Positions 6,400 through 21,983 of a stretch of 64,000 bases of DNA are shown here, piece by piece. The DNA lies in NCBI GenBank assembly GCA_025916675.1, contig CP098402.1:3219205-3283204 (forward strand), in the 5' to 3' direction. The stretch comes from Phycisphaera sp. (lineage in GTDB: Bacteria > Planctomycetota > Phycisphaerae > Phycisphaerales > UBA1924). The translations under genes and the position numbers were made by a program. Within the stretch, counting starts at the first letter, position 1. Each line of letters starts with the position of its first letter. The notes beneath the pieces were generated by a model, which was not told the origin of the DNA, ran no database searches, and saw only the letters and a list, made by a program, of their open reading frames with translations.

Positions 6400-6864
6400 C
6401 TAGTTGGCGCGTCGCAGGCGCAGGTACTTCATGAGGGCGCGCCGGTCGCCGGTGGCGCGTGCGTCGTCGTGCGCACGATCGACCACCGCGCGACCCGGCG
6501 CGCCCTGGGAGGGATGGCTCGGGCTCATGGCCGACGCGCGTGCCGAGCTGGCCCGGAAGAGCGCGGGCCGCTCGCGTTGGAGCTGGGCGATCACACGCTG
6601 GGGCGTGGCGTCATCGTCGCCCTCGAGGCGGCTCTCGACCAGCAGCGCGAGCGACTCGGTGTCGAGCGCGCCGGCCTGGGCCAATCCCCGTTCGATGGAG
6701 CCCCGGCGTTCGAGCCTGCTGGCGCGGTCGCGCAGGTCGTTGAGTTGCGCGTCGCGGGCGCGGAGCTGGTCGGCCAGGTCGTGCGCCATCTGGGTGCGTT
6801 CGGCCAGGGCCTCGCGCAGGTCGTTGTCGGTGTTGGTTGGCTCGTTGGGTGTGTTCTCAGGCAT
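6400..6864 (-). CDS. Scaffold-like phage protein
   Basis: 154 residues beginning MPENTPNEPTNTDNDLREAL. The ATG at 6864 overlaps the portal stop by 8 bases and has AGGAGA upstream. A long N-terminal charged helix with heptad character (about 15-65) is followed by an Ala/Arg-rich tail, typical of capsid scaffolding proteins that sit between portal and capsid genes. It does not carry a recognisable protease. Role inferred from shape and gene order. Confidence 0.6.
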   Translation of the reverse strand: MPENTPNEPTNTDNDLREALAERTQMAHDLADQLRARDAQLNDLRDRASRLERRGSIERGLAQAGALDTESLALLVESRLEGDDDATPQRVIAQLQRERPALFRASSARASAMSPSHPSQGAPGRAVVDRAHDDARATGDRRALMKYLRLRRAN

Positions 6865-7399
6865 TGGTGTTCTCCTTTGCGGTTGTGGGGCGGGGGGCGG
6901 CGTAGCCCAGCTCGGCCAGCACGCGCTCGGGGTTGATGCCCAGCTCGTTCTTGCGCTGGGCGCTGGCGAGCCGGTCATCCTGATCGAGGTCGATGGCATC
7001 GGGCCAGTGGACGCTGACCTTGCGGTCCTGCGGCTCGGTGGCGAAGGTGCCCGCGCGGTCGAGGGCCTCAAGGATGAGGGCGCTCACTCGTGCGATTCCG
7101 GTGCCGTAGCCGACGCGCTTGCGGCGGGTCTTGCTGAGGAGTCCCAGCATGGTCACGCGGAGCGCGTTGCCGCTGGAGAGGTTGCCGATCTTGGCGCGGA
7201 CGACGCCGGCGGCGATGGGCGGCACGCCTGAGGTCTTGTCCATCGCCTCGCGGATCTCCTCGACGTGGACGGTCTCGCTGGGCGAGTCGGCATCGCCACC
7301 AAACGCGGTGACCTGGGCGTCGGGGTTGTCGGTGCTCAGCACGCGGCCCGGGCCAATGCGGACTTGGTCGAACCCCTCGATGCCCTTGGCCAGATACAT
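6857..7399 (-). pseudogene. Phage portal protein, C-terminal fragment
   Basis: About 180 residues homologous in style to the C-terminal half of portal proteins: an RIGPGRVLSTDN segment, then EEIREAMDKTSGVPP and KIGNLSSGNALRVTM, then a helical tail ending near GYAAPRPTTAKEN. Portal proteins are usually 450 residues or more, so the N-terminal half is missing. The break falls exactly at 7399/7400, where the non-coding repeat with CTTGAACCAAGAAACAC begins. No terminase is present upstream, so the phage block was severed here by recombination. An in-frame ATG at 7399 is fortuitous. Confidence 0.75.
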
Positions 7400-7600
7400 C
7401 TTGAACCAAGAAACACAGCCACAGATCAGCCACTATGGGCTCTCAGGGCGGTTCTCTGGATCGATCAGTCGACCTCGTCTGACCTCGATCAACCGTAATG
7501 TAGTGCAGGAATTATGGTGGGCGGGGTGTGTTTGCCTGAGCCAGCACTCGCTGAGGCCATCAATGCTAGAAAATTGGAGTGAGAGGATCGAGCTGATTTT
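7400..7600 (+). repeat. Non-coding repeat, copy A (5'-truncated)
   Basis: Shares with copies at 15829 and 18597 the start CTTGAACCAAGAAACAC, then GATCGATCAGTCGACCTCG, TCTGACCTCGATCAACC and TGTAGTGCAGGAATTA. The 5' half seen in the other copies is absent, because portal sequence begins instead. Downstream, GTGAGAGGATCGAG with TAGTCAGAT (about 7574-7605) looks like a decayed version of the tRNA-like gene that follows copy B. Confidence 0.75.
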
Positions 7601-8165
7601 TTGTAGTCAGATCAGCCTCTGGGGCTGGAATTACAGACTCTAGTTTGGGGTGAAAACCGCGAGCCTCCTCGCATACGCTCGGCTGTTAGCTCGCTCTACG
7701 ACGGTTTCTGCAACTAGAACATTGTCAAACCCAACCCAGCGGCCAAGGCTGAGCGATCCAGAAGCAGCTCCGGACGGCCGGGTGCGGTGACACCCAACCT
7801 GGGGCAATTTCAGCCCAGGAAAAACAACGACACCGAGGCCGAGACCTGTCTTCACGGGCAATGTCGTCCCAATCAGGCAACTCACCAGAAGGTACTAGCT
7901 ACGTTACCACAAGACGAAGCTCATGCCATGCAAGGCTCACCATTGACACGCGGCAGGGTCGACAGAGTCTCTGGATTTGGGATGATGTGACCGCCTGGGC
8001 GTGAGTGCCCGCTGAGGATGATCCGGGTTACCCATGATGACGCATTTGAACAATTTTACGAGCGACCTGCTAGATCAGCGGCCAAGGGCCCAATTCTTTG
8101 TGTGGGGCCCGCCCGGCACTGGTGCGGCTCGTCCCACGAATTCGATTTTTGGAAGGAGATCAAAC
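7601..8165. other. Intergenic region, no supported gene
   Basis: One minus-strand frame (7640-7885) contains GRWVGFDNVLVAE, reminiscent of the domain preceding exosortase-type tails, but it lacks a good start and tail. It is treated as possible debris of a secreted-protein gene. A GGAAGGAG ribosome site at the right edge serves the next gene. Confidence 0.3.
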
Positions 8166-8788
8166 ATGCGTTCTACCCATATGCTGGCGGCCGCCGCGGG
8201 GTTGGCCGCCCTGGCGGGCACGGCTGCCGACAGATATCACCCAATGGCTGGATCATCGAGGTCCAAGACCCCGTCTTGGCTCTTCCCGGCCACAGCAGCG
8301 GGCTTCCGCAAATGACGACCGTCGAGGTGTACGCCAAATTCGACAGCGCAGTGGACTATGCATTCGCGGCAGGTATCTACGACTTCATTGCCAACGAGGC
8401 CGGTGGCTGGAGTGACAACACCCTGGTGGTGCCATTTGGACCAAACGAGACCAGCGCAAGCGTGTCATTGCCCGGCGATCCCGATGCCACTAGTGCAACA
8501 CTCGGGCAAATCTACTTCCTGCCAGCGGGCATCTTCGCCGATCCCACTAACCCCGCCCTGGTGTGGACCATGAAGTTCACAGCCACCGAGTTCACGCCGC
8601 GGTTCATCGACCTGGAGACCATTACCAGCCGGTTCGCCCTGTACATCGACGGTGCGTTGCCGGATTCCAGGTCCCTCGATACCGCTCTCCTGATGGAGGG
8701 CAGCGGGCAGATCCAGATCATCCCCGTACCGAGCGCTCTCGCGTGCCTGGGCCTGGCGGGCCTGACACTGGTGCGCCGCCGGCGCTGA
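8166..8788 (+). pseudogene. Exported PEP-CTERM-like protein, frameshifted
   Basis: ATG at 8166 follows GGAAGGAG and opens a good signal peptide, MRSTHMLAAAAGLAALAGTA. Near 8222-8232 the frame then breaks. The continuation is one base out of phase (QISPNGWIIEVQDP onward) and runs to 8788 with the tail PVPSALACLGLAGLTLVRRRR, a short hydrophobic sorting helix capped by Arg. The protein matches the intact paralog at 58368-58982 over PAGIFADPTNP, the FxxYxD-like segments and the tail. A single-base indel would restore it, so this is either a young pseudogene or a sequencing error. A hairpin terminator follows. Confidence 0.75.
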
Positions 8789-8818
8789 TACGGTTCGTTT
8801 ATCTTGTAGCTCTCTTCT

Positions 8819-8848
8819 CCACGCCCCGGCCCGCCGGGGCGTGGTTGT
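8819..8848 (+). terminator. Hairpin terminator after the 8166-8788 gene
   Basis: 11-bp perfect stem CCACGCCCCGG (8819-8829) and CCGGGGCGTGG (8834-8844) with a 4-nt loop; only a short T tract follows. Confidence 0.7.
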
Positions 8849-8995
8849 GCGCGCTCGGAGTGCGTCTCGCATCCACGTCGCTGCTGCAAAAATGTGTGAG
8901 TAGAACTGTTAGATCGCGGCGGCGGAAGCCAACTCCTTTCAGTGGGCAGCGCGATGTCTCGCGTACCCAACGGTGAACTGCGAAGGAGAATCCAG

Positions 8996-11350
8996 ATGGA
9001 AACAGTAAAACAAACGGTGTCGGCAAGCCAGAACTTCCCACCCGCTGAGACCGGGGGCATGGCGAGCGCCTCTCGACCGGGACGAGGAACCCTTGGGGCA
9101 TTGCTTGCCGCGGCAGGCACGGCGATGGTCGGTATTGGCGGCATGGCCAACCTTGTTGGAATGAGCAGTACCGTAGCGTTGGTGGGGTTGGTCACATCAC
9201 CCCAGTGTGCGTTTGCACAGTGCGGCGACGAAGAGTTGTCGCAATCGACGGATCCCGACGTGATCCAGGCCTCCCGGGCGGCCTGGTGCGGCACGCTGGA
9301 CTTCAACGAGCAGACGCAGATCGGCCGGGGCTTCACAGCCCCTTACGACCTGACGATCTCGTGCGTGACGTTCGGTGTCACACGCAACACCGGAGCCGAC
9401 TGGCCGTGCCAAGTGCGCATCCTGGGCGGGGCCATCACCGATCCCTACGCGTCCCGGCCGGTGCTGGCCGAGGCAACGGTGGTAGTGCCCGCGGGGACGA
9501 CCAGTGAGTTCTTCACGGCCGCGTTACCGGCGGCGTTCGTTCCGGAGGGACAGGCGTTCATCGTCGAGCTCGACACGCCCTCGCGCAACCCCGCGACCGG
9601 TGGTGATGGCGAGTTGCTCTCGTTGGGGTTCAACGCTCTGGGCCAGTCATCCCCGACCTACCTGCGTTCGGAGGCCTGCGGCCTGCCCGAGTTTACCGAT
9701 GTATCGGGCTTGGGATTTCCCAACAGCCATGCCGCGATCTCGGTGGGCGTCACCGCCGGGTATGCCGTGCCGGTGCTCGGAGGGTTTCCGATCAGCCCGA
9801 TCGGGCCTGTGGCGCTGGGTACGGTGGGTGGTGAAGTGGCCGCCTATGGCGATGGGAGTGCCGCACCCTTTGGCCTGTCGGTCGCTTACGGCGATCTGAC
9901 AATGGGGGTCGACGCATCGTTCCGTGCGCTCTCGACGGACGATCAGATAGACCCGACGGTGACCATCGCCTTCAAAAGCGATCCCGGTGCGGCAGGTGAT
10001 CGCATTGTGTTCCGGAACAACCCCGCGACGTCGGACGAGGCGGTGCTCGAACTCGATTTTGATTCAGCGGGGTTTGATCGGTTCAACGTCCACGTGTTCC
10101 GAGAGGGCGAACTGGTCGGGACACTCGAGGACCAGACCTCGGGCTCGGTGCGGTTCATGAACCCCGACGAGGCCTTCTGGAATTGGGTCAAGGGGCTCTT
10201 CGGCATCGGGGTGGAGGCCGGCTGCCAACGCGATATAGAGTATTTCGAGAGCGGCGCCGTAAAGAGGGATCGGTCCTTCTACGGCGTGCGGACCCCCCCC
10301 GCAGTCGTCGCGCCAACGACAGGGGGCGGACCGACACTCCTCGGCGACGAGATCTGGATCGAGCCATTTGAGCCGTCGATCAGCGTGTCGCCACCAGTGA
10401 TGGTGGAGTTCACAGCGACGGGCATCGTGGGCATCGCGATTGACGTGAGCGCGAGCGCACCCGGCGTGGTCATCGGCGAGGCCGAGACCAGCCTCCGGCC
10501 CTTTGGCACCGGCACCGTGACCCAAGTTGGCGTCTCGATGAGGGCCATCGACGAGACGGGCGCGCATTCGTTGACCGCGACGGATGTCACCGGCGACGGG
10601 CTCGCCGACCTTCGCTATCGTAAGCGGGCCCCCCGTGATAGGGACGATGGGCGCCTTCGCATGGAGCTTGGCGGCGTGGTGTCGGCCTCGGTGGGCATCG
10701 ATGTGCTGGCACCCGATCCGGCGGCGGCCTGCATGACGGTGTGCTCGTTCGAGGTTGGGTCCTTCATCATTCCCTCCGGCAAGATGAGTTTGGATCCCTG
10801 GCCGATCGATCCCGATCTTGTAGCGGTCGCGCCCGACTTCACGGGCGTGGGCGACGAGACGTACACCCTCCAGATCTTCGACCTGTCCGGCACGCTGGTG
10901 CACGAGGAGTCCGGGCTCCAGGGCATTGCTGGCGGATGCTCAAGTTGGCCCTCGGAGATTGGCAAACTCGGTGGGACCACGCCATGCTTTAAGACCTGCT
11001 ACCCACCCGATTCGGTCTTCCGCACGGCGGGCGGTCTGGAGTTCGATGTGCATGAGCTGCGCGCGCTGGCCGAAGGAGCACCCGATGCGGGCCCGCTCGC
11101 GTCGCTGGACTTCAGCATTCTCAATATGGACGAGTTGGTGCTGTTCGACCCGGTCACCGAGTTGCCAGCGATCGCTAAGCCCTGCCGCGCCGACATCGAT
11201 GGCGACGGCGCGCTCACGATCTTCGACTTCTTGGCCTTCCAGAACCTCTTCTCGGCCGGCGACCCGGCCGCCGACTTCGACGACGACGGCCAGTTGACCA
11301 TCTTCGACTTCCTCTTGTTCCAGAACGAGTTTTCAGCCGGCTGCCCGTAA
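8996..11350 (+). CDS. Large secreted protein with C-terminal dockerin-like repeats
   Basis: 784 residues from ATG at 8996, preceded by AAGGAG; an upstream in-frame start at 8942 lacks a ribosome site. An unusually long N-region precedes a hydrophobic export segment (about 35-75, ending near CAFAQC). The N-terminal domain has paired Cys residues (SCVTFGVTRNTGADWPC). The middle is beta-rich. The last 60 residues hold two dockerin-like units (DIDGDGALTIFDFLAFQN and DDDGQLTIFDFLLFQN), as in the protein at 1217. Likely exported and surface-anchored. Its substrate or partner is unknown. A terminator follows at 11383. Confidence 0.8.
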   Translation: METVKQTVSASQNFPPAETGGMASASRPGRGTLGALLAAAGTAMVGIGGMANLVGMSSTVALVGLVTSPQCAFAQCGDEELSQSTDPDVIQASRAAWCGTLDFNEQTQIGRGFTAPYDLTISCVTFGVTRNTGADWPCQVRILGGAITDPYASRPVLAEATVVVPAGTTSEFFTAALPAAFVPEGQAFIVELDTPSRNPATGGDGELLSLGFNALGQSSPTYLRSEACGLPEFTDVSGLGFPNSHAAISVGVTAGYAVPVLGGFPISPIGPVALGTVGGEVAAYGDGSAAPFGLSVAYGDLTMGVDASFRALSTDDQIDPTVTIAFKSDPGAAGDRIVFRNNPATSDEAVLELDFDSAGFDRFNVHVFREGELVGTLEDQTSGSVRFMNPDEAFWNWVKGLFGIGVEAGCQRDIEYFESGAVKRDRSFYGVRTPPAVVAPTTGGGPTLLGDEIWIEPFEPSISVSPPVMVEFTATGIVGIAIDVSASAPGVVIGEAETSLRPFGTGTVTQVGVSMRAIDETGAHSLTATDVTGDGLADLRYRKRAPRDRDDGRLRMELGGVVSASVGIDVLAPDPAAACMTVCSFEVGSFIIPSGKMSLDPWPIDPDLVAVAPDFTGVGDETYTLQIFDLSGTLVHEESGLQGIAGGCSSWPSEIGKLGGTTPCFKTCYPPDSVFRTAGGLEFDVHELRALAEGAPDAGPLASLDFSILNMDELVLFDPVTELPAIAKPCRADIDGDGALTIFDFLAFQNLFSAGDPAADFDDDGQLTIFDFLLFQNEFSAGCP

Positions 11351-11382
11351 CCTCGTGATCAGAGGGAACACATGTGCGCTCA

Positions 11383-11411
11383 CCACGCTCCCGCCAAACG
11401 CGGGGGCGTGG
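11383..11411 (+). terminator. Hairpin terminator after the 8996-11350 gene
   Basis: 12-bp stem CCACGCTCCCGC (11383-11394) with GCGGGGGCGTGG (11400-11411), including one G-T pair, 5-nt loop. The T tract is weak (CTATTT). Confidence 0.65.
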
Positions 11412-11446
11412 CTATTTGATCCCTGGTAATCTGTGGAAAGGTTGTT

Positions 11447-11644
11447 ATGAAACCACTGATTGCGTTCTTCGTGTTAGGTGGCGTGATGGTGCTGCTGGCG
11501 GCGGTGGCCATTGGGGCCATGATCAGCATTGGTAGCGGGCGGCCGAGCTGGCTGCTCATCGGCGTGTTCGTGCTGGATTCGCTCGCACTCTTGCTCTTGG
11601 CCGGCCATTCGGTGCTCCGGCGGCGCAAAAGCAACGAGCGGTGA
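11447..11644 (+). CDS. Small two-span membrane protein
   Basis: 65 residues with two hydrophobic helices (about 3-27 and 34-54) and a C-terminal Arg/Lys cluster (VLRRRKSNER), consistent with N-in, C-in topology. ATG has GGAAAGG upstream. It faces the kinase gene tail-to-tail with a 25-base gap. No family recognised. Confidence 0.6.
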   Translation: MKPLIAFFVLGGVMVLLAAVAIGAMISIGSGRPSWLLIGVFVLDSLALLLLAGHSVLRRRKSNER

Positions 11645-11669
11645 GTGAGCGTGGCGCCTGTGGGCAGGG

Positions 11670-14600
11670 TTATTCGAGCGGCTCGGCCTCACGCCAGTAA
11701 TTCTCGTTCCCTCGGATGTACCCGAGCAGCTCATTGAGGTCGGTGATGCCGATCCAGGGGTCCTGGCCAGAGGTGTAGAGCTTCGTGCCGTCGGGACTCA
11801 GAGCGATCGAGAAGATGGAGCGGTCATGCACCGGCAGCTGCGCCAGCTCGACGCCCGCGTGCGGGTCGATCACGACGATCGAGCCACCCGGGCCGACCGC
11901 GAAGAGCACGCTGCCCCGGGGATGGAAGACCAGGTCGTATGGCCCCCACGGCAGCCCCCTGATCGTGCGCAGCAAATCGCCGCTTTCGGCATCCCATACG
12001 CGCAGGGCGCGGTCGTCGCCGCCGGTGACGGCCAGCTCGCCGTCGGACGACCACGCAACGGCCCGGATGGTCGTACCGTGGCCGTAAAGCTCGTGAAGTT
12101 GCTCGCCGGTCTCCAGGTCGAGCACGGTGGCTTTGGCGGGCTCCCATGAACTAGAAACGGCCGCGCACAACAACCGGCGGCCATCGGGACTGAACCTGAC
12201 CATCGGGAGGCGATGCATCCCAGTGTGGTACGCGAATGGCTCCACTGGCCCATCGTGTCCCGCTTCCCTCCACACCCGGATCACGCCGCCGAAGTCGCCA
12301 GCGGCGATCGATCGACCGTCGAGGCTGTATTGCACGCTCCAGAGCGGGGGCAGGCCCTCAGCGACGACGCGCAGCGGCCGGCCATCGGACTTCCACTCAC
12401 GGATCGCGCCGTCGGCTCCAGTGGTCAGCAGAGTCGCGCCATCGGGCGACCAGCACACAGCGTTGATTTCGTCGTCGTGGGCCGGGATCGGGGTTGCGTC
12501 GTGCGGCTCCCGGATCGGCCGGATGTACAGCGTGCCCACATCGTCGCCCCAGGCCAGCGTGCCATGGAGAGAGGTGGTAATCGACATCTGCGTCTGCGGA
12601 TTCGTCTTGATCCGCGTCAGCCACGGGCGGTCGGTTGTGGCATAGACAGCGACGCCGTCGGCCGCGGTCATCGCCGCCAGCGGCGGGTCCCCCGCGGATG
12701 CAATCCTGCCGAAGGCGCCGGTATCATCGTGCCGCAGGTCGAGCCCGGGCACCGCGAAGATCATGAGCACGCCGTCGGTGGTCCCCGTCACGATGAGCGA
12801 ACGGTCCTGGCTGTCGAACACGATCTGCCCGATATTGACCGTTGGCGCATCAACGCGCGACAGCAGTTCCGGGGCCGCCGATACATCGAACAAGAGGAGT
12901 TGGTCACCGACTGCCGCAGCGAGCATTTGGCCATCATGGCTCAGGACCGGGGAGACCATCCGATCGTACTTGCCGGCCAAAACAGGCACATTGGGAATAT
13001 CGACGGATCGGTGCACATCCCAGTTGGGCGGTCGCGCAATGGATACGCGGGCGGAGGACTGGTCTCGGGTGCCGACCAAGAGGAACAGTTCGCCTTGCGC
13101 GTCCCGGTCCAGGTGCACCCAGAAAATCTCCGGCCCGAACAGGGCGAGGGAAGTTCCGTCGTCAACGTTCCAGACCAGGGTCGAGCCCAGCTCCGGCTCG
13201 TTGAGACGCACCAAGACCCGGCCTTCGTCCTCGACCAGCATGGAATATGCCGATTGCTCGGAGGCGAACGATGGCCCGACCACGGTGCCTTGGTCCACAT
13301 CCCAGACCTGCGCCGTCCTCTTGCCGTCCAACTCGCCATGCAGCACGACGTACCGCCCGTTCGGGCTGGCAACCGAGGTCGTGGGCCAGGACGCTAGCTC
13401 CGGCGTGGGCTTGATCGGCCGGCCGTCAAACGACCACGACCATCGCGAGCCGCTGTTGTCGATGGCCCACATCAACTCACGCTCGGGGTCGAGCCCCACG
13501 CTGCGGAAGAAGGTGTCGGCGCGGGCTCGCATCAGGCGCGGCAAGCCCGCGTAGAACTCGGCCAGCGACCACGCCGAACGCAACCGGCTGGCGGGGGCCT
13601 CCCACAACGCCAAGTCGCTCGTGGTGATGCCCGCAGCGATGGCTTCGTCCCACAAGAGCGCCTCGGCCTGCTGCGGATCGCCGGCCTTGGCCATGAACCG
13701 GGCCCGCTGCACAGTGCTGTCCGAGAGCGTGGCTTCGATTTCGCGGCGTGCCCGGTCGAGGTCGGTCGCCAGTAGGGCGAAGCCGATGGCCGCCAGCAGC
13801 ACGGTCAGCGCGACGATCGCCACCGCGGCCGAGGCGGCACGGTTTCGCAGCACGAGCTTGCGTAGCACATATGTCGCACTGTCGCGGCGGGCGGCGATTG
13901 GGTTCCCGGCCAGGTAATCTTCAATGTCCTCGGCCAGGGCCGATGCGCTGGCGTACCGACGCTGGGGATCCTTGGTCAGGCATCGAAGCACGATGGTCTG
14001 GACATCCTTCGGCAAACGTGGCACGGAGCGCGACGGCGGCGCGGGCATAGTCTCGGCCGCGTGCCGAGCCACCGCGGCAATCGGGCCGTCGCACGGGTAG
14101 GGCGAAACACCGGTCAGCAGGCGGTAAAGCATCATGCCCATCGAATAGACATCGCTGCGCGCGTCGGTGTGCTCGTGCTGCTCGTTCAGCCGTTCCGGGG
14201 CGGCGTAGGCGGGCGTGCCAGCGAAGCTCTCGGTCATCGGCGCGTTGGAGCGCGCGTCGGGGGCCGTCTCGATCGAACGCGCCAGCCCGAAGTCGAGCAC
14301 GCGGGGCACGCCGTGCTCGTCGACCAGGATGTTGCTTGGCTTGATGTCTCGGTGGATGATGCCGGCCGTGTGCGCGTGGCCCACGCCCATCGCGACCTGC
14401 ACTATCAGCCGCATGACGGCGTCAGCGCGCGCCTTGCCGCCGCTGCTGGCCCGGCCGAGCGTGTCCTCGACGTAGTGGTCCAGCGGAACACCGGTCACGA
14501 ACTCCATCGCGACGTACCGCCCTCCGTCGGTCGCCGCGCCCGACTGGAAGATGGTGACGATGTTGGGATGGCGCAGGCCCGCGGCTAGCTCAGTCTCGCG

Positions 14601-14978
14601 TTCGAAGCGGTACACCTGCCGGTCGCTGGCGAACGCCCCGGCCAGGAGCATCTTGATCGCCGCGGGCCGCTTTGTATCGCTCTGGATAGCCCGGTAGACC
14701 ACACCCTGCCCGCCGCAGCTGATCTCCTCGACGATGCGATAGCCGGGGATGCTGTCGCGTTCGGGCAGGGGGCGAGATGATACCTGGGGATGCAACTCGC
14801 CCCGCAGGGCCTCGGCCAAGTCGCCCGCAGCGTGGATCAGGAAGCGATCGTTCGCGCGCACCGCTTCGAGCTGGGCCTTGCACGCCGGGCAGCGCGCCAC
14901 GTGCCGGCGCACGGCCGGCGTCGCCTCGTCGCGCGAGGCCAGCGTTTCGAGATCCGAGGCACCTGGGCAATCGCGCAT
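11670..14978 (-). CDS. Transmembrane Ser/Thr kinase with anti-sigma zinc motif and WD40 repeats
   Basis: 1102 residues. Residues 26-33 carry H-x3-C-x2-C, the zinc motif of ZAS anti-sigma factors. The kinase domain (about 75-345) has a Gly-rich loop (CGGQGVVYRA), AAIKML, HRDIKPSN, DFGLARS and an APE segment, so it is complete. A transmembrane helix lies near 390-412. The remainder folds as WD40-type blades, with repeats of the type VRFSPDGRRLL, AVAWSSDGELAVTGGDD and SIALSPDGTKLYTSG. The ATG overlaps the stop of the ECF sigma gene upstream (TGATG), so the two are translationally coupled. I infer a membrane kinase that both sequesters and phosphorylates its sigma partner, a known planctomycete layout. 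Confidence 0.9.
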   Translation of the reverse strand: MRDCPGASDLETLASRDEATPAVRRHVARCPACKAQLEAVRANDRFLIHAAGDLAEALRGELHPQVSSRPLPERDSIPGYRIVEEISCGGQGVVYRAIQSDTKRPAAIKMLLAGAFASDRQVYRFERETELAAGLRHPNIVTIFQSGAATDGGRYVAMEFVTGVPLDHYVEDTLGRASSGGKARADAVMRLIVQVAMGVGHAHTAGIIHRDIKPSNILVDEHGVPRVLDFGLARSIETAPDARSNAPMTESFAGTPAYAAPERLNEQHEHTDARSDVYSMGMMLYRLLTGVSPYPCDGPIAAVARHAAETMPAPPSRSVPRLPKDVQTIVLRCLTKDPQRRYASASALAEDIEDYLAGNPIAARRDSATYVLRKLVLRNRAASAAVAIVALTVLLAAIGFALLATDLDRARREIEATLSDSTVQRARFMAKAGDPQQAEALLWDEAIAAGITTSDLALWEAPASRLRSAWSLAEFYAGLPRLMRARADTFFRSVGLDPERELMWAIDNSGSRWSWSFDGRPIKPTPELASWPTTSVASPNGRYVVLHGELDGKRTAQVWDVDQGTVVGPSFASEQSAYSMLVEDEGRVLVRLNEPELGSTLVWNVDDGTSLALFGPEIFWVHLDRDAQGELFLLVGTRDQSSARVSIARPPNWDVHRSVDIPNVPVLAGKYDRMVSPVLSHDGQMLAAAVGDQLLLFDVSAAPELLSRVDAPTVNIGQIVFDSQDRSLIVTGTTDGVLMIFAVPGLDLRHDDTGAFGRIASAGDPPLAAMTAADGVAVYATTDRPWLTRIKTNPQTQMSITTSLHGTLAWGDDVGTLYIRPIREPHDATPIPAHDDEINAVCWSPDGATLLTTGADGAIREWKSDGRPLRVVAEGLPPLWSVQYSLDGRSIAAGDFGGVIRVWREAGHDGPVEPFAYHTGMHRLPMVRFSPDGRRLLCAAVSSSWEPAKATVLDLETGEQLHELYGHGTTIRAVAWSSDGELAVTGGDDRALRVWDAESGDLLRTIRGLPWGPYDLVFHPRGSVLFAVGPGGSIVVIDPHAGVELAQLPVHDRSIFSIALSPDGTKLYTSGQDPWIGITDLNELLGYIRGNENYWREAEPLE

Positions 14979-15610
14979 CAGCCGTTCTCGTCGTAGGCCA
15001 CGGTCAGCTCCTGCACGATCTCACGCAAGCGGCCTGTGAGTCGATTCTTGACGACGTAGACCGCGTCGACCGAGATGCTGCACTGGGCGGCCACCTCCTC
15101 GGCCGGCACGCCACGGATGGCAAACAACTCAAAGGCCCGCAGCGTGTCCGCCTGCACCCGGCTGGTGTCGCGCAGGATCGACATGGCCTCGATCACGATG
15201 GCACGCTCGCGTTCGCGATCCCAAGCGTCCTGGAGCAGGCGTTGGTCGGCCCAGGCATCGTCCAGCAACTCATCACCGGTATTGGCCGGCCCCCGAGCGG
15301 CTCGTCGCCGCAGCCCAGAGCCCACGTTGCTGGCGATGCCGATGAGCCACGAGCTCAGCCGCCCCCGCCCGCGCTGGTATCGTCCCTGGGCGTACGCCCG
15401 CGCGAACTCGGCAAGGGTCTGCTGGGCCATTTCGGCCGCATCATCGCCGGCGAACCCAAGACGGTGGGCAAAGGCGGTCAAGATCGGTCGGTAGCGGGCA
15501 TCGAAACTCTCCCATGCCAGCACATTATCCCTGTCATGCAATTCTTCCAGCAGCCGCGTCGTAGTGCGCGTATTGGATATTCCCAAGCTGGGAGGGAGTG
15601 GCGTGGACAT
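14978..15610 (-). CDS. ECF-family RNA polymerase sigma factor
   Basis: 210 residues. Region 2 is visible at about 30-105 (AWESFDARYRPILTAFAHRLG, D-D-A-A-E-M-A-Q-Q-T, SSWLIGIASN). Region 4 lies at about 150-200 (RAFELFAIRGVPAEEVAAQC, then VDAVYVVKNRL), a helix-turn-helix that binds the -35 element. Its stop overlaps the kinase start by one base (TGATG). The kinase N-terminus has the anti-sigma zinc motif, so kinase control is the likely regulation. No strong Shine-Dalgarno precedes ATG 15610. Upstream lies the nested inverted repeat at 15657-15750. Confidence 0.85.
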   Translation of the reverse strand: MSTPLPPSLGISNTRTTTRLLEELHDRDNVLAWESFDARYRPILTAFAHRLGFAGDDAAEMAQQTLAEFARAYAQGRYQRGRGRLSSWLIGIASNVGSGLRRRAARGPANTGDELLDDAWADQRLLQDAWDRERERAIVIEAMSILRDTSRVQADTLRAFELFAIRGVPAEEVAAQCSISVDAVYVVKNRLTGRLREIVQELTVAYDENG

Positions 15611-15656
15611 GCCCGATGGTATGCGGGACAGCGTTCGGTCTTATCTATGAAGAACA

Positions 15657-15750
15657 CTGACCCTCCCTAGATGGGGGTGTCACGATTTGTCCTGCGAGGC
15701 CCAGCCAGACTCGAATGACAGTCTTGGGCCTTGATCAAAAGGAGGGTCAG
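15657..15750. repeat. Nested inverted repeat, MITE-like
   Basis: Outer arms CTGACCCTCC (15657-15666) and GGAGGGTCAG (15741-15750) are perfect 10-bp inverted copies. Inside, AGGCCCA...AGACT (15697-15711) pairs with AGTCT TGGGCCT (15720-15731) around an 8-nt loop. The 94-bp unit has no coding capacity. It lies between the sigma operon and IS debris, and its ends resemble IS3-type termini (TGACC). Confidence 0.6.
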
Positions 15751-15758
15751 GCGATGGA

Positions 15759-15780
15759 TGACCTGCTCCCCAAAATCTAG
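15759..15780 (+). repeat. Solo IS3-type end
   Basis: TGACCTGCTCCCCAAAATCTAG matches, in this orientation, the ends found at 17911, 18951 and 23321 on the other strand. No transposase lies inside it. Confidence 0.6.
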
Positions 15781-15828
15781 CAACCTGCGATGTGACCACT
15801 CGGCGAAATGGACTGGATTCAGGGGGAA

Positions 15829-16140
15829 TGGTCACGGAATGGGTGTTTACAAATATGGGTGGGGCTCCGTGCCATTTGTAGTGCAATGGCTGTACATCGC
15901 AAGTGGTTTGTATGTGCGCAACACACGACCACGAATTGGCTTACGACATCAGAGAACAGCCTGCTTGTTTACGTCTTGAACCAAGAAACACACCCCAAAA
16001 AACAGCCTTCACGGCCATTGAAGGCTGTTTCAAGGGTCGATCAATCGACCTCATCTAACCTCGATTAACCGAAATGTAGTGCGCAACTTTGGATGCACAG
16101 AGTGCAGCTGCTGGTCCCGCTATCTGCTCAGGCCACTACT
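15829..16140 (+). repeat. Non-coding repeat, copy B (longest copy)
   Basis: Begins GGTCACGGAATGGGTGTTTA and continues through GGGCTCCGTGCCATTTGTAG, GTGCAATGGCTGTACATC, TTACGACATC and CTTGAACCAAGAAACAC. It contains a 12-bp hairpin (AAACAGCCTTCA at 15999-16010 with TGAAGGCTGTTT at 16018-16029) and the near-palindrome GGTCGATCAATCGACC. It ends directly at the 3' side of the tRNA-like gene. It aligns along its length with copy C and over its last half with copy A, and has no usable reading frame. Confidence 0.8.
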
Positions 16141-16214
16141 CGGGGTGAGAGGATTCGAACGTCCGACCTTCTGGCTCCTAGTCAGACGCGCTGCCCAAGC
16201 TGCGCTACACCCCG
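16141..16214 (-). tRNA. tRNA-Pro-like gene, anticodon AGG; possibly decayed
   Basis: On the minus strand the 74-nt sequence folds as a tRNA. The acceptor stem CGGGGTG/CACCCCG is perfect (7 bp) and the D stem GCGC/GCGC is perfect. The anticodon loop CTAGGAG gives anticodon AGG (Pro, CCN reading if A34 is deaminated), and the T loop is TTCGAAT. There is one A-C mismatch next to the anticodon loop and one C-C mismatch in the T stem. No CCA is encoded. A bacterial tRNA-Pro(AGG) is unusual; TGG, GGG and CGG are the norm. It may be a relic or an attachment-site copy. Confidence 0.65.
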
Positions 16215-16259
16215 TATGTGCCCCCAGCCCTCCACTGGCCCCATCCAATACCATGGGCC

Positions 16260-16569
16260 ATGCTCGATCACGCTGCACTGCTCGTCCGCTCAATTGAGGG
16301 CATGCTCGCCCGCCTCGGGCAGGTCGATGCTGATTGCGGCCCGATCGAAGAATTCCCGGGCGAGGGCACCCGCGAGCTCTATCTGGGCCCGCCGGGCCGG
16401 CCAGGCCGCCTCCTGCTCATCGAGCCTCTCGGTGAGGATGGCCCATACGCCCGAGCGCTCTGGAAGCGCGGTCCCGGGCTGCACCACGCGGCCTTCGCCA
16501 CCGCCAGCATCGACGCGTTTCTCAGCGATAACCCCGGATGGCTGCTCCACCCGATCAGCCTTAAGACGC
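16260..16569 (+). pseudogene. VOC/glyoxalase-like protein, 3'-truncated
   Basis: From ATG 16260: MLDHAALLVRSIEGMLARLG, then GTRELYLGPPG, RLLLIEPLGEDGPYARAL, GLHHAAFATASIDAFL and GWLLHPISLKT. This is the VOC fold seen in methylmalonyl-CoA epimerase-like and glyoxalase proteins, with metal-binding His near the start and in GLHHAAF. The domain should continue another 20-30 residues. After HPISLKT the reading frame changes character and runs to 16670 with Arg/Ser-rich nonsense, while a different frame (16570-16908) becomes protein-like. A recombination junction near 16565-16570 is inferred. Confidence 0.65.
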
Positions 16570-16908
16570 GTGACACATCGGCTCGTACGATCAATCGGGC
16601 AACAGGTCTGCGTTCAGGCTCTCGCCACGCTGATCCCGTGGGCAGCGTTCGCGGCGTACACCGCGATTAAGTCAAAATCGTCGCAGTGCGCGCCGGTCAT
16701 TGCCGTGCTGTCTGCAGACATGATCGCCGTCGTGCTTCTCGGCATCGGCCTGTCGTATCTGGTCTATCGCCTCATCGTTTGGCAGGTCAACCGCACGAGA
16801 CGCGAGACGAACGCTCACCGAAGCCAATCTCACACATTGGCGTGCCCAGCAAGATCTCGCGGGACTGTTCTGGCCCCGAGCCACCGGCGGCCGAGTCCCC
16901 AAGGATGA
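16570..16908 (+). CDS. Two-span membrane protein or fragment
   Basis: 112 residues if read from GTG 16570. Two hydrophobic stretches, VQALATLIPWAAFAAYTAI and VLLGIGLSYLVYRLIVW, are followed by a basic tail. No ribosome site is seen, and the frame arises where the VOC gene is broken, so this may be the 3' part of a foreign gene rather than an independent one. No family recognised. Confidence 0.35.
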   Translation: MTHRLVRSIGQQVCVQALATLIPWAAFAAYTAIKSKSSQCAPVIAVLSADMIAVVLLGIGLSYLVYRLIVWQVNRTRRETNAHRSQSHTLACPARSRGTVLAPSHRRPSPQG

Positions 16909-17125
16909 GACAGGTACAATTCTGACGAAGCAGGCAGCGGGTGCCAGAGTGGTCGATGCGAATGACGGCGTTTCGGATGCGTTGGCGGCGCTACAACCAG
17001 CCGTGCGTCGATGAGCCGCGACGACTTGCGTTTGCGCCGCGTGAGATCACTAAACGCCCGGCGAACCGCAGCGTGCCGATGCTGAACGGCCGCCGAGCAC
17101 CCCTCCGGCTATCGAGATCCGCTCC

Positions 17126-17671
17126 ATGACCATGCACGAACGCGACGGCCGCTACTTCGCCGATACCGCCCGGGTCGTAGGTGATGTCCGCCTCGGCCGA
17201 GAGGTCAACATCTGGTACGGCGCCACGATCCGAGGTGATGTCGCGCCGGTGGTCATCGGTGACCGTACCAATGTTCAGGACAACGCTGTCATCCACTGTG
17301 ACCACCGCTACGCCAATGTCATCGGCGACGATGTCATCATCGGTCACGGTGCCATCGTGCACGGCGAGACGATCGGTTACAACACGCTCATCGGCATGGG
17401 CGCGGTCATCCTCGGGCGTACCAACATCGGCAGCGGTTGCATCATCGGAGCCGGCGCCGTCGTGCCGCCGGGGCTCGAAGTGCCCGATGGCTCGGTCGTG
17501 ATGGGTGTCCCGGGCAAGATCATCCGCCGGGTCAACGATCCAGACCGGGCCTACCTGGCCAAGTTGCCAACGCACTATACCGCCCTGGCCCGCAAGCATG
17601 TGGCCGACCCAGATCAACCCGTGATCTTTGAGATGAGCGAGATCCTGAACGCAGACCTGTTGCCCGATTGA
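17126..17671 (+). CDS. Gamma-carbonic-anhydrase-like hexapeptide protein
   Basis: 181 residues of left-handed beta-helix hexapeptide repeats: VRLGREVNIWYGATIRGDV, then NVQDNAVIHCDH, VIGHGAIVHG, TLIGMGAVILG and CIIGAGAVVPPG. The His residues in IHCDH, VIGHGAIVHG and nearby match the metal ligands of the YrdA/gamma-CA family. The length fits. Such proteins bind zinc or iron as trimers; many have no measured carbonic anhydrase activity. The start is the first ATG of MTMHERD. A single gene surrounded by recombination debris. Confidence 0.85.
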   Translation: MTMHERDGRYFADTARVVGDVRLGREVNIWYGATIRGDVAPVVIGDRTNVQDNAVIHCDHRYANVIGDDVIIGHGAIVHGETIGYNTLIGMGAVILGRTNIGSGCIIGAGAVVPPGLEVPDGSVVMGVPGKIIRRVNDPDRAYLAKLPTHYTALARKHVADPDQPVIFEMSEILNADLLPD

Positions 17672-17708
17672 TCGTACGGGCCGATCTGGAACGCAAGCTG
17701 CCAGCTTC

Positions 17709-17858
17709 TTAGTAATGCGGCCGCCACCGGTAGTACGGCTGCGCGGTGATCCCCAGCCGCCGCGTGACCTCGGGAACCTTCATCCCTAGGCCCAGCAGCA
17801 CCTCCGCCTCGCGGAGCTTATTGATGATCTGTTCCACGCTGTGCTCGATCCGTGCCAT
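17709..17858 (-). pseudogene. IS3-family transposase OrfA, N-terminal remnant
   Basis: MARIEHSVEQIINKLREAEV followed by LLGLGMKVPEVTRRLGITAQ and YYRWR is the helix-turn-helix start of IS3-type OrfA (TnpA). It stops after 49 residues where about 90 are expected, and no OrfB follows. The matching IS end lies upstream at 17911-17939, the usual distance from the OrfA start. Confidence 0.75.
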
Positions 17859-17910
17859 GACAAGACCTGCCTTCTCAGGTGCGTCCGATCCCACCAAAGG
17901 ACCGCATAGC

Positions 17911-17939
17911 AGATGGACTAGATTCTGGGGGGCGGGTCA
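17911..17939 (-). repeat. IS3-type terminal repeat belonging to the OrfA remnant
   Basis: Minus strand TGACCCGCCCCCCAGAATCT, continuing AGTCCATCT. Near-identical to the ends at 18951-18972 and 23321-23344. Confidence 0.65.
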
Positions 17940-18249
17940 GATGTCCTGAGCAACAAACAGGCATCGATCTCGTGCCAAGTGATGGTACGGCATCATGAGG
18001 TCGGGTATGACTGTGGTGACGATACTGTAAGGAGATGATCGACCCCCCAAATTGGGGGGAGTGCTTGTTGTCCAGCCGCCAAAGAGCCCAGAGCCCAGAG
18101 GCCAAGGTCGATTGTGATTGCTCCAAAGAGGTGGACAGGTGGCTGTACGTGTGGCAGGTGGTGAGTCATACGTTGGGACATGCACCGACGTATACTCTTG
18201 TATTACCCGTTGTGGCTGATGAACGCACTCAACAATCAAGGAAATACGC

Positions 18250-18492
18250 ATGGCCTATCACTCGACGACGGACAAGGTTGCTGGTGGCGTCGTGGGCTCG
18301 GTTTGTGGTGCGAAGTCTGGGGCCGTTGTTGGAGGCATACTCGGTTGTGTCGGAGGGCCAGTGGGAGCGGTGGTTGGTGCGAAGCTCGGCGCGATTGCTG
18401 GCGGCGCAATCGGCGGGACTCTTGGTGCAAAGGATCCCAAGAATGCAGTGAATGCTGTGAGGCGGCAGCAACTCATGAATCGGATCAGATAG
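18250..18492 (+). CDS. Glycine-zipper small protein
   Basis: 80 residues with AAGGAAA upstream of the ATG. Residues about 10-60 repeat G-x3-G spacing (GGVVGSVCGAKSGAVVGGIL, GGAIGGTLGAK), the glycine-zipper pattern of membrane-inserting or outer-membrane-associated small proteins and of some bacteriocin-like peptides. No double-glycine leader is obvious. It sits between two repeat/IS remnants without partner genes. TATACT at 18191-18196 could be its -10 element. Function unassigned. Confidence 0.6.
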   Translation: MAYHSTTDKVAGGVVGSVCGAKSGAVVGGILGCVGGPVGAVVGAKLGAIAGGAIGGTLGAKDPKNAVNAVRRQQLMNRIR

Positions 18493-18596
18493 ACTTGGAG
18501 TTCCATAGGCGTCGATTGCCAGGCGATGGAACATGTCGGTGAGCGAGTAGCCAACGCATTGCTAGTGGGTACCGCTGTGGCTGGACTCTAAGGTAA

Positions 18597-18898
18597 AGGT
18601 CACAGAACGGGTGTTTAGCTCACTCTGGGTGGGCTCCGTACCAATTGTAGTGCAATGGCTGTACATCACAAGTTAATTCTACGTGCGCAAGACACGATCA
18701 CGAATTAGTTTACGACATCAAAGAACAGCCTCGCTATCGACCTCTTGAACCAAGGAACACACCTCAAAAGCAGCCGTCACGGCCTCTGAGGGCGACTCCA
18801 TGGGTCGGTCAGTCAATCTGATCCGACCTCGATCGACCAATTTGTAGTGCAGAAATTACTGGTACACAGCGCGAGTGCCCGCCCGATTGCTCACGGTG
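18597..18898 (+). repeat. Non-coding repeat, copy C
   Basis: Parallels copy B from GGTCACAGAACGGGTGTTTA through GTGCAATGGCTGTACATCAC, TTACGACATCAAAGAACAGC, CTCTTGAACCAAGGAACACA, GACCTCGATCGACC and TTGTAGTGCAGAAATTA. The hairpin of copy B is decayed. Where copy B meets the tRNA-like gene, copy C runs into an IS3-type end. Confidence 0.8.
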
Positions 18899-18907
18899 CG
18901 ATCGACC

Positions 18908-18972
18908 TTGGGACAAGCGCATCCTGCCAAGTTATCACATAGCGGATGGACTGGATTCTGGGGGGCAGGTCA
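18908..18972 (-). repeat. IS3-type right-end remnant
   Basis: The stretch GGGACAAGCGCATCC...GCGGATGGACTGGATTCTGG...GGCAGGTCA aligns with 23285-23344 (GGGACAAGCGCACCC...AGGTGGACTAGGCTCTGG...CCAGGTCA). Both end, on the minus strand, in TGACCTG(C/G)CCCC. Confidence 0.6.
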
Positions 18973-19151
18973 AGACCTCCTTGCCCGGCGCGTCTCCTAA
19001 GTAGAAGTGATCCTGGCCGCAACACCACCAGTATGACGACAACACAGTACCGAGGACCCGAGGTTGAACGCAGACAATCCTGTGCAAGGCCTGAGCGACG
19101 TAGCAAACGTCTTCGTCAAGAGCATCACAAACAGCTGGCTCGTTGCGTCGC

Positions 19152-19157
19152 TATAAT
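19152..19157 (+). promoter_or_regulatory. Candidate -10 element of the lipoprotein gene
   Basis: A perfect TATAAT lies 58 bases before ATG 19215. No good TTGACA-like -35 is present at 16-18 bases, so an activator or alternative sigma factor may be needed. Confidence 0.4.
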
Positions 19158-19214
19158 TGCATTGCACGATGACATGTCTCACGCAGGGCTTTGCGACCAT
19201 TTGGAGAACATAGA

Positions 19215-20078
19215 ATGAGAAGAGCCTTAAACTGTTGGCACGGCGCCCTGACGATGACGGTAGCTATGTGCGCAAGTGGATGCAGTTCAGCTGCACAGTT
19301 CAGGCCGGCGAGCAGTGCGCTGTCACGCATTGTATCGTCGCGCGGGTTTGAACCTACAGATTCGCCGCTATCTTATTATGCTCCTGGTGCCGTATTGAAA
19401 CGTGACGAGAACGGGAAGTGGAGAGTAGCCTCCGTCGGACTTCCTACTGGCTCGCTAAGGCCGGTGATCCCAGAAGACGATGTTCCGCGCGCAGCTCTCG
19501 GTGACGAGACCTGGGACGAAGTTGTTGTTGCGTCGAGCGAATTCATTGGGGGCGACATCCACCTAGGTCTGATTCCGACCGTCTTGTCTGGGCCAGACCT
19601 TGAAGCGTCTTTGCAACGAGCCGGCATGTCATTCGTTAAGGTTGACCCCGGCACAGTGACTGTGCACAGTCTCGATGTTCGGCGACTCGAGCAGTTCATC
19701 AGAGATCTTAACGAAGCTGACGTTGAGTTCTTTCGAGATACGGTTATCTTGTGGCAGACAGTAACTTGGGCCGGCGCTAAAGTCGAATCGCTCGACTGGC
19801 AAGGCCGCAGACTCACGCTAGACGCCAATGTGATCCAACGCGAGATCGGTGAGATCGATGCCGGAGCCACCGGCGACCTGTCATGGCTTTCAGATGGCGT
19901 GGTGGTGATCGACGAGCCACGCGTAGTTGGCTACGTACCGTACAGGCCAGTCATACGAACCGGATATCAAGGTGGGGGCTACGCTGTCGAGTGGACACCC
20001 CTCACCGAGCCTGAGAAACGAGATCTCGAAGCCGCGTTATCCACCGGTGGATTGGAGCTTCTTTCGGAGGTTCGCTAG
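19215..20078 (+). CDS. Putative lipoprotein of unknown function
   Basis: 287 residues beginning MRRALNCWHGALTMTVAMCA, with a lipobox ASGC just after; Cys at about 22 would be lipidated. GGAG precedes the ATG. The mature part has a region about 60-190 rich in acidic and beta-prone sequence (EEFIGG-like SSEFIGGDIHLGLIPTVLSG) that may be a secretin/STN-type or BON-like fold; I do not recognise it. Its 3' end overlaps the convergent lipoprotein gene by 42 bases. GC content is lower than in the flanking host genes, suggesting transfer. Confidence 0.65.
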   Translation: MRRALNCWHGALTMTVAMCASGCSSAAQFRPASSALSRIVSSRGFEPTDSPLSYYAPGAVLKRDENGKWRVASVGLPTGSLRPVIPEDDVPRAALGDETWDEVVVASSEFIGGDIHLGLIPTVLSGPDLEASLQRAGMSFVKVDPGTVTVHSLDVRRLEQFIRDLNEADVEFFRDTVILWQTVTWAGAKVESLDWQGRRLTLDANVIQREIGEIDAGATGDLSWLSDGVVVIDEPRVVGYVPYRPVIRTGYQGGGYAVEWTPLTEPEKRDLEAALSTGGLELLSEVR

Positions 20079-21722
20079 GCGATGCACTAACTCATCCTGT
20101 GCCTCGCGCTGCCTCTGGCCCTCGTAGGCAAGACGCACACTTGCCATAAGCATCTCTGCATCTGAATCTTGAACCACACCGATCGCGGCAAGTGCGGCAC
20201 TATCACACTGCACTTCATCCTTAGTGAGTTCAGGAAAAACATGGGCCAGTTCATGAAGCAGTAGAAAATCAACTAGTAATAGGTAGCGACGGTAAACCTC
20301 GTCAGTAGCGTTCGTTGTGCGGGATGTGCGAGGAAGGCCAGGGACACCCACCCAGGTTTCCAAGGTCGAGTCAATAGTGCTTGCACCAGCGCTTACAAAT
20401 GCCAATGTGAGAAGATCAAATAAGAACGCAGAGTTGGCACGAATGCGGATCTCGCTGCTAATGAACTCAATGTCGGCCGTCCCTCGGTCTATCAGATCGA
20501 TCGAGACAGGTTGCTCAAGACCGAACGCATCGAGGATGGAGCCAACCCTCTCGCCCAGTATCTCCGAAGGAAAACCAGCCTGCTCCCAGTTCTCGCCTGC
20601 GAGTGTCCGCAGTGTGCTCGTAGCGCTCGCAAGGTCCATTTCCACGGGAGGGTGACCGGAGTAACTGCTCACGCGAAGCATCGCGTCTAAAACCTGCAGT
20701 CGTGCTTCAATGCGCTCACCGGGGGGCGTGCGCCGTTCGTCGCTTCGTGTGATCGCAGCGAACTCTGATCCAGCCGCGGTCTCCCGAGGCCGGGTTCTGA
20801 TCGACCCCGTCGACACATCAGGGACAGCAATCAGATCGACAAACTGATCCGCGCGAGTTGACATAGGTGCGTAGATCTGGTTGTTAATCCAGCACGTCCA
20901 CGCTCGCCTACGCCACTCGGGAAGACCTATTTCATGTGTGATCGCACTTAGATAGACCAACCGATAGGAGGTGGGAAAAGTCTGTTCGGGTAGAAAGTAG
21001 AGTCCTTCTGCGTCGTCAAAGGCCGGGGCAAAAATGTCCGTATGCTCCCAAAACAAATTGCGTTCTGACGGAGAAAGCGACTGGAACGAATTTGCGGTTG
21101 GCGGCCAGCTAACACGATTGCGGACTCGTTCATCGGAATAGTAGGGGTACACGATCATCCCCATGTTCGCGCCATCCCTTGTAACCCGAGTCAGACCTCG
21201 GTCGATCGCAGCCTGCTCGTCGGGAACTGTTGAACCAGCGCGAATTGAATGGGGTGCATCTGTGAAGTCGAAAAGCGTCTGATAGTCCTGCTCGAATTGA
21301 TGCGTTGCACTGGCACCCGACTCGATGGCGGCAAGTGATTGCCAGATAGTAAGAAGAGGTGGCAGCATCCCAGAGATTATTGGTTGCTCGCCGTGATAGG
21401 TTGGACCCTGCTTGATCTCAGGAAGGGCACCAACCGCCTTCTCTGAGAAGTAGTCGATTAATCGCCGAATGTCGGTCTTTCTTGGAGAGTCATTCACTGT
21501 TGCGCGGGTGAGCGGCGTAACTCGCGAGAAGATCGTCGGTGGTGCGGGCGGATTATGAGCGAAGAGTGATTTGGGCTTGGGCTGAAACACGCAGCCGGAC
21601 AGGGGCACCATGGCTGCAAGTACACCAATAGAGGAGAGCAGCAAGAAGCGCTGGCTGTGGCCCCACAGAGGAGATCCCGTATGCCAAGAAGAAGTTGTAA
21701 GACTGAGTCGTAGGAGCTTCAT
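20037..21722 (-). CDS. Putative lipoprotein with zincin motif HELAH
   Basis: 561 residues from ATG 21722. The N-terminal signal contains SIGVLAAMVPLSGC, a lipobox with Cys near residue 44. Near residue 490 lies LLLHELAHVFPE, an HExxH zinc-metallopeptidase motif in a hydrophobic helix, with acidic residues 10-15 positions downstream (DEVQCDSAA) that could supply the third ligand. The bulk (about 60-450) matches no family I know. An upstream in-frame start at 21782 would add 20 residues before the signal. Convergent with, and overlapping, the lipoprotein gene 19215-20078; the two may form a pair acquired together. Confidence 0.65.
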   Translation of the reverse strand: MKLLRLSLTTSSWHTGSPLWGHSQRFLLLSSIGVLAAMVPLSGCVFQPKPKSLFAHNPPAPPTIFSRVTPLTRATVNDSPRKTDIRRLIDYFSEKAVGALPEIKQGPTYHGEQPIISGMLPPLLTIWQSLAAIESGASATHQFEQDYQTLFDFTDAPHSIRAGSTVPDEQAAIDRGLTRVTRDGANMGMIVYPYYSDERVRNRVSWPPTANSFQSLSPSERNLFWEHTDIFAPAFDDAEGLYFLPEQTFPTSYRLVYLSAITHEIGLPEWRRRAWTCWINNQIYAPMSTRADQFVDLIAVPDVSTGSIRTRPRETAAGSEFAAITRSDERRTPPGERIEARLQVLDAMLRVSSYSGHPPVEMDLASATSTLRTLAGENWEQAGFPSEILGERVGSILDAFGLEQPVSIDLIDRGTADIEFISSEIRIRANSAFLFDLLTLAFVSAGASTIDSTLETWVGVPGLPRTSRTTNATDEVYRRYLLLVDFLLLHELAHVFPELTKDEVQCDSAALAAIGVVQDSDAEMLMASVRLAYEGQRQREAQDELVHRLANLRKKLQSTGG

Positions 21723-21983
21723 GGTGATGATCGCCTCTAGTGAATAAGCCCAGAGCCTAAGGGGGTGAGCGTGGGAGTGCACACGCCGCGGCGCCTGGCT
21801 GGTGCCGCGGCCGACACAGTGGGCGCGAGCATCATAGTCGGGCCGCTGATCAACCCGATCCTGTACTGGAACCTGTGAGCGACTTTTGCAAGCAGCTTAA
21901 GCACGTGCACGACAATACCGATCGCTACGCGATCGATCCAGGGTAAGCGCCGAGCATGGGAGCCGCGCGGGGCTGAGTCCGCC

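Follow-up and report, generated by a model that had tools for sequence, protein, structure and literature searches.

Tandem accretion of integrative and mobilizable elements (IMEs) or integrative and conjugative elements (ICEs) with cis-mobilizable elements (CIMEs) is well described (ICESt1-type arrays: PMC5704250, PMC7563491; also PMC3146451). Tandem islands with short direct repeats are also found at ssrA in Dehalococcoides, and 15 of them that lack an integration module are described there as possible CIMEs (PMC3146451). Here we describe a comparable locus in a 64,000-nucleotide stretch of the genome of Phycisphaera sp. (assembly GCA_025916675.1, contig CP098402.1, positions 3,219,205 to 3,283,204; hereafter the window, whose numbering is used throughout and extended as "window-scale" beyond its right edge). 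An earlier note, made from this sequence, had reported three diverged repeats, called copies A, B and C, and had read them either as a mobile or recombinogenic non-coding element or as repeated attachment (att) sites of integrative elements that used a tRNA-Pro. The present analysis assigns a probability of about 0.88 to the reading that A, B and C are att sites of one tyrosine-integrase system and that the island containing them is a tandem array.

As in ICESt1-type accretion (PMC5704250, PMC7563491), the Phycisphaera locus consists of modules that share att sites, some of them without an integrase, with one integrase-bearing element at the end. Unlike those arrays, the island lies in a phage-derived portal gene, which is left split, and its excision and transfer are putative. 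The Dehalococcoides ssrA islands (PMC3146451) share the tandem organization, the short direct repeats as boundaries and the presence of islands without an integration module; they differ in using a serine recombinase and a tmRNA target, whereas a tyrosine recombinase and a portal gene are involved here. Islands in tRNA genes (tDNA) with an anticodon-centered crossover, as catalogued by Islander (PMC4383910), are matched by those sister elements of the one studied here that have two mapped ends, which sit in tRNA genes, but not by the element of the window itself.

The target of the insertion is a portal gene that now exists in two pieces. Its C-terminal 180 codons form the left half of the interrupted target (6857..7399, minus strand; PHROG family phrog_104, portal, 1.7e-7), while the N-terminal half, about 311 codons, was found in the same genome some 67 kb to the right, outside the window and on the same strand (G000:C1:3293822-3294754, minus strand; window-scale 74618-75550). 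What stands at 7399 is not a gene start but the ATG of a methionine internal to the portal protein; the earlier claim that copy A cuts the portal gene at its first base is therefore incorrect. A match to the C-terminal reading frame is present in 49 of 61 genomes (this genome included), and all six congeners (6/6) have a full-length portal gene. In each of the six, the left flank (up to 7405) and the right flank (from window-scale 74619) are contiguous and overlap by 11 bases, TACATCTTGAA. The same 11 bp stand at both ends of the insertion in the Phycisphaera sp. genome, as the left core (7395..7405, plus strand) and again at the right junction (attR; window-scale 74619-74629), which lies 10.6 kb outside the window. 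When the flanks are joined, they yield a single open frame of 488 amino acids counted from the second residue, identical to the protein of congener G005 at 441 of 494 positions with 6 gap letters. Because the flanks meet with an 11-bp overlap in the congeners and join into one frame, the insertion is precise and measures 67,224 bp from core to core; comparison with the six empty sites shows it to be integrated by site-specific recombination at the 11-bp core. At E up to 1e-30, the corresponding 18-kb loci of the six congeners contain no match to the element of more than 300 bp. The island thus shows what is expected of an integrative element, namely an interrupted target, one core repeated at its two ends, and empty sites in related genomes, and the breakpoint that had been suspected at the CTTGAACCAAG edge is real. 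The attB of a tRNA-targeted island would lie within a tRNA gene; here it is the portal gene.

The last gene of the insertion (L058 9486-10739, minus strand) starts about 80 bp inside the right core and encodes a 417-amino-acid protein that matches the PHROG integrase family phrog_1 (8.3e-15), which places an integrase at one end, as in other site-specific integrative elements. A PDB sequence search with this protein returned nothing up to E = 1. An AlphaFold model built from nine sequences (mean pLDDT 80.1, pTM 0.50) has structural matches to XerA, Tn1549 Int, lambda Int (PDB 1z1b and others) and Cre, and the protein is a tyrosine recombinase of the lambda-Int/Xer fold. The root-mean-square deviation (rmsd) from these structures is about 10-20 Å over the whole chain and about 3 Å for the catalytic domains alone; the large whole-chain values reflect domain placement. 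The N-terminal domain of lambda Int binds arm sites, and since the lambda Int alignment begins at residue 8 of the model, an equivalent domain can be proposed tentatively.

Like lambda-type integrases, the protein has a catalytic and core-binding fold and is associated with arm sites that flank the core. In its catalytic half, RH, LGH and Y do not vary among nine aligned relatives. Unlike lambda-type integrases, it has no Pfam match (none at E up to 5, and no recombinase match in three family members scanned), its arm-binding domain is tentative, and the canonical box I arginine is not at the usual position in the nine aligned relatives. At E up to 1e-20, the integrase has matches at 17 other places, distributed over 15 other genomes of the 301 searched.

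The repeats themselves are few. A search of the one-contig, 3.62-Mb genome with copy B gave three matches, A, B and C (B itself counted), at the places reported before; the proposed search for further repeats yielded no fourth copy in the genome and no DNA-level match in any of 60 other genomes (0/60). The similarity of B and C spans about 250 bp, while A resembles them only from the core rightwards. From the core to TGTAGTGC, identities are 76% (A-B), 73% (A-C) and 77% (B-C). The 5' block, formerly described as common to all three, is confined to B and C (81% identity); A begins at the core because the portal gene occupies its left side. CTTGAACCAAGAAACAC is present at 7400 and 15975 and, with one mismatch, at 18744; a fourth match, with three mismatches, is found at 51764, against 0.02 matches expected at up to three mismatches. 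There are four occurrences of TGTAGTGCA against 0.16 expected.

A is attL, the left junction of the whole insertion, and B and C are predicted internal P-core-P' sites. Copy A (7399..7510, plus strand) comprises the portal flank, the core and a P' arm with its arm site TGTAGTGC at 7499-7506, +100 from TCTTGAA. Copy B (plus strand) consists of a P arm (15832..15973) with arm site TGTAGTGC at 15877-15884 (-97), followed by the core TCTTGAA (15974-15980) and a P' arm (together 15974..16086) that includes the near-palindrome GGTCGATCAATCGACC and an arm site at 16075-16082 (+101). Copy C, on the same strand, has a P arm (18603..18742) with arm site TGTAGTGC at 18646-18653 (-97), and a core TCTTGAA (18743-18749) with a P' arm (together 18743..18854) whose arm site lies at 18843-18850 (+100). 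At the right junction, the arm site is at -71. Since B and C possess a core and both arms, they are read as internal att sites between tandem elements.

An arm motif obtained from other genomes recovers the same sites. A direct pair of GTAGTGC, 23 bp apart, precedes the integrase in nine of the 17 other loci; the count becomes 14 of 17 with variants that were noticed only afterwards (CACTACA in two, GTCGTGC in three), and three loci (L075, L076 and L079) have no such pair. A weight matrix was built from 19 sites at the integrase loci of nine relatives, none of them from the Phycisphaera sp. genome, and was used to scan 82.8 kb on both strands. Its six best hits, at 16.5-23.6 bits, are C (P'), B (P), C (P), A (P'), B (P') and the right junction; the next scores are 13.7 and 11.3 bits. 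Locus L104 was excluded from the final motif since it had been found through a pattern derived from the repeats, and an earlier run that included it gave the same six best hits. Plus-strand TCTTGAA occurs ten times in the 82.8 kb, and plus-strand TGTAGTGC lies within 110 bp of four of these, which are A, B, C and the right junction. A degenerate P'-arm pattern matched no viral contig and 12 stretches in genome contigs, of which two are in Phycisphaeraceae (L104 and L106) and ten, possibly chance matches, in other taxa; the L104 stretch contains a tRNA-Gly and two arm sites 23 bp apart. When the region of copy B (15700-16260) was compared with phage and plasmid collections, the matches among the best 20 of 422 and the best 20 of 64 lay on the tRNA or started less than 30 bp from it, and are thus uninformative about the repeat. 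The split target, the 11-bp core at both ends, the adjacent integrase, the independent arm motif and the six empty sites together lend strong support to the att-site half of the earlier proposal.

The island is most simply viewed as an inferred tandem array A - E1 - B - E2 - C - E3 - attR. Module E1 (7400..15973) measures 8575 bp from core to core and module E2 (15974..18742) 2769 bp, and neither contains an integrase match by tblastn. With E up to 10, the integrase produced one chance-level piece (E 4.8) over 7.4-18.7 kb, a region where family scans covered selected open reading frames (ORFs). E2 encodes a glyoxalase-like protein (from a gene that looks truncated), a gamma-carbonic-anhydrase-like protein and the relic of a transposase (HTH_Tnp_1). 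With predicted att sites at both ends and no integrase found in between, E1 and E2 resemble CIMEs. Element E3 measures 55,880 bp from core to core; its part within the window is 18743..64000, and its right end, beside the integrase gene, is at window-scale 74,623. In the proposed mechanism, the N-terminal domain of the E3 integrase would bind arm sites of the TGTAGTGC type, and strand exchange would take place at TCTTGAA. With the right junction as one partner, recombination at A would free the entire array and restore a continuous portal gene, and recombination at C would free only E3.

Related integrases provide a comparison. A tRNA gene lies within about 150 bp of the integrase at seven of the 15 loci covered by ARAGORN (out of 17), and tRNA fragments are visible by eye at other integrase loci. 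Far ends were sought in six relatives, drawn from the 15 genomes with a match to this integrase, over 21 to 60 kb each, and a second att core was found in five of the six; G051 had no core repeat. The core repeat is 39 bp long in G002 (48 kb away) and in G040 (8 kb away), where the integrase-bearing element is at a tRNA-Met gene; in G246, a far core copy lies about 37 kb away. G078 (L088/L087/L086) and G294 (L094-L096) have two far core copies each, 8.7 and 7.7 kb apart, with the elements at tRNA-Gly genes and a second module of about 8 kb. These two of the six elements are tandem arrangements as well. In G294, an integrase-like piece (37.6% over 125 amino acids) lies beyond the second far site. 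In G040, part of the far end resembles the P' arms of A, B and C, with the near-palindrome region and TGTAGTGC included (in each comparison, 0 of 500 resampled sequences score as high; here and below, "resampled" means first-order Markov resamples, not exact shuffles, 500 per test). The sister elements with two mapped ends sit in tRNA genes, and the duplicated part extends, as judged by eye, from the anticodon region towards one end of the tRNA.

Copy B does adjoin a tRNA-Pro-like gene, as had been noted: ARAGORN and Rfam both find a degenerate tRNA-Pro with anticodon AGG (16140..16214, minus strand), 88% identical to the tRNA-Pro(GGG) of the same genome, though at 46.8 bits it is the lowest-scoring of the 46 tRNAs found in the genome. 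Its stems, read by eye, have mismatches in the T-stem and in the closing pair of the anticodon stem. The gene is probably a pseudo-tRNA; it lies beyond the arm site and is a degenerate passenger inside the element. Three better-scoring tRNA-Pro genes (UGG, CGG and GGG) are among 34 of the other 45 tRNAs. Compared with these 34 tRNA stretches, A and C have no match better than E = 0.04, and the strong matches of B are on tRNA genes only. On the minus strand, a perfect 12-bp stem with a T-run after it (16000..16030) resembles an intrinsic terminator, and this hairpin looks like the terminator of the minus-strand tRNA-Pro-like gene. The hairpin had been listed as shared by the copies; it is strong in B (z -5.3, minus strand) and not in A (z -1.1) or C (z -1.8). 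The relic of an insertion sequence (IS) end reported for copy C is present at its right edge (18938..18981, minus strand; 0 of 500 resampled sequences reach its score), and a second one abuts the left end of copy B (15794..15834, minus strand; 0 of 500); an IS3 type is inferred for both from transposase pieces nearby. The apparently truncated glyoxalase-like gene of E2 (16218-16670) adjoins the tRNA-Pro-like gene; it has no match in the six congeners at E up to 0.001 and is therefore useless as a synteny marker.

A tRNA-Pro gene next to copy B and the frequent location of integrase relatives beside tRNA genes would both fit an island that targets tRNA-Pro, with the repeats as the 3' flank of that gene. 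However, the tRNA is unsplit and lies about 160 bp inside the core, beyond the arm site, it is the portal gene that has been split, and the tRNA-like tail ascribed to copy A lacks significance, its score being reached by 24 of 500 resampled sequences. Use of tRNA-Pro was thus rejected and is in our estimate extremely improbable: the split portal refutes it for the insertion seen today, and an ancestor may once have had a tRNA target. The conserved blocks, the near-palindrome and the hairpin in B could also belong to a dispersed functional non-coding RNA, or to an element like a repetitive extragenic palindrome (REP) or a miniature inverted-repeat transposable element (MITE), but just three copies were found in the genome, all in one island and each where an att site is expected, none was found in 60 other genomes, the hairpin is not kept in A and C, and the tRNA is the sole Rfam match in the window at the gathering threshold. 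The non-coding element of the earlier note consequently receives almost no weight. Finally, had an intergenic region next to tRNA-Pro simply undergone segmental duplication, three diverged copies would lie close together, with a tRNA-like gene beside one of them, as is seen at B. Such a history would not have A start exactly at the portal breakpoint, nor the same 11 bp close the insertion 67 kb further on with an integrase there, nor an arm motif derived from other genomes pick all four sites; where A and the right junction are concerned, it is refuted by six congeners with empty sites, and as an explanation of the whole it is scarcely credible.

The main rival is a single composite island whose true ends are A and the right junction, with B and C as duplicates of an att-bearing segment inside it. 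Both arms are similar between B and C (81% and 77%), and E2 is just 2.8 kb long and contains relics of a transposase and of IS ends, which makes an IS-driven rearrangement plausible. On the other hand, a core with both arms must then be placed twice, which accretion gives automatically, and two far core copies are also found in two of the six related elements examined. Such a duplication is considered unlikely, and the tandem array is preferred. Several observations nevertheless count against the array. B and C could be duplication products inside one island, and the former separate existence of E1 and E2 is putative. The core upstream of TCTTGAA is not the same in B and C (TACGTCTTGAA and GACCTCTTGAA). 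The P arm of the right junction is 53% identical to that of B and 59% to that of C, where an arbitrary stretch gives 52%, with no alignment beyond the arm motif; because of this dissimilarity, the E3 integrase may recognize B and C poorly, and either E3 is perhaps a relative and a later arrival, or drift may have altered the arms. The structural matches to the integrase model barely extend over its N-terminal domain. Far ends other than that of G040 are less similar to the P' arms of the island: G002 is unlike all three (145-187 of 500 resampled sequences reach the scores), the likeness in G078 is weak (A 4, B 190 and C 3 of 500), G246 resembles B only (0 of 500; A 6, C 14), and the likeness of G294 is chiefly to C (1 of 500; A 18, B 22).

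E3, a candidate IME or ICE, encodes a NikA/MobC-type mobilization protein and a MobA/VirD2-type relaxase at 60699..62562 (plus strand), and its cargo includes Gabija-type GajA and GajB at 23496..27373 (plus strand; PADLOC, 601.5 and 402.9 bits, respectively). Consecutive multi-ubiquitin, E2-like and E1/JAB-like genes (36758-38857) form a prokaryotic ubiquitin-like conjugation set. E3 also has two ArdC-type antirestriction genes (57281-58342 and L058 5864-6751), two toxin-antitoxin pairs and an ORF of 2277 amino acids with RHS repeats (41251-48084). A second tyrosine recombinase, similar to XerC/XerD, is encoded within E3 beside a Phd/ParE pair (48726-49802) and may mark a nested element. An integron/attC interpretation was dropped: this recombinase scores far below the integron-integrase cut-off and has no visible link to the repeats.

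The portal gene belongs to a phage-head cluster (3236-7399, minus strand, plus the N-terminal portal half outside the window) that also includes an SU10-type capsid gene and five small genes. Its seven genes are in the same order in all six congeners. Among 301 genomes of the order, 162 have the portal and 159 the SU10-type capsid. The PF03237 terminase was found in none of seven genomes of the genus (41 genomes were searched, with matches in ten, six of them over the cut-off; other terminase families were not searched). The cluster is a candidate gene transfer agent (GTA) or other domesticated capsid system. A wider scenario has a small chance of being correct: a lineage of integrases whose targets elsewhere are tRNA anticodon regions would have switched to the portal gene, and a stack bearing defense genes would reversibly turn off a GTA-like or otherwise domesticated capsid system. 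The turn-off would be reversible because excision between the outer sites would re-join the portal gene.

Tandem accretion is already known; what may be new is the att layout of this integrase family, along with integration into a portal gene retained across much of the order. In a partial literature search (Planctomycetes GTAs or recombinase islands, and the Phycisphaerae portal), no listed title or abstract opening describes the portal/capsid cluster or the integrase. A puzzling repeat family has become a set of precisely mapped predicted recombination sites, and their att grammar (a TCTTGAA core, TGTAGTGC arms and arm pairs 22-23 bp apart) is now testable. A phage-derived portal gene, present in more than half of these 301 genomes, can serve as an integration site, and the split portal gene offers a natural knock-out from which the role of the portal/capsid cluster may be learned.

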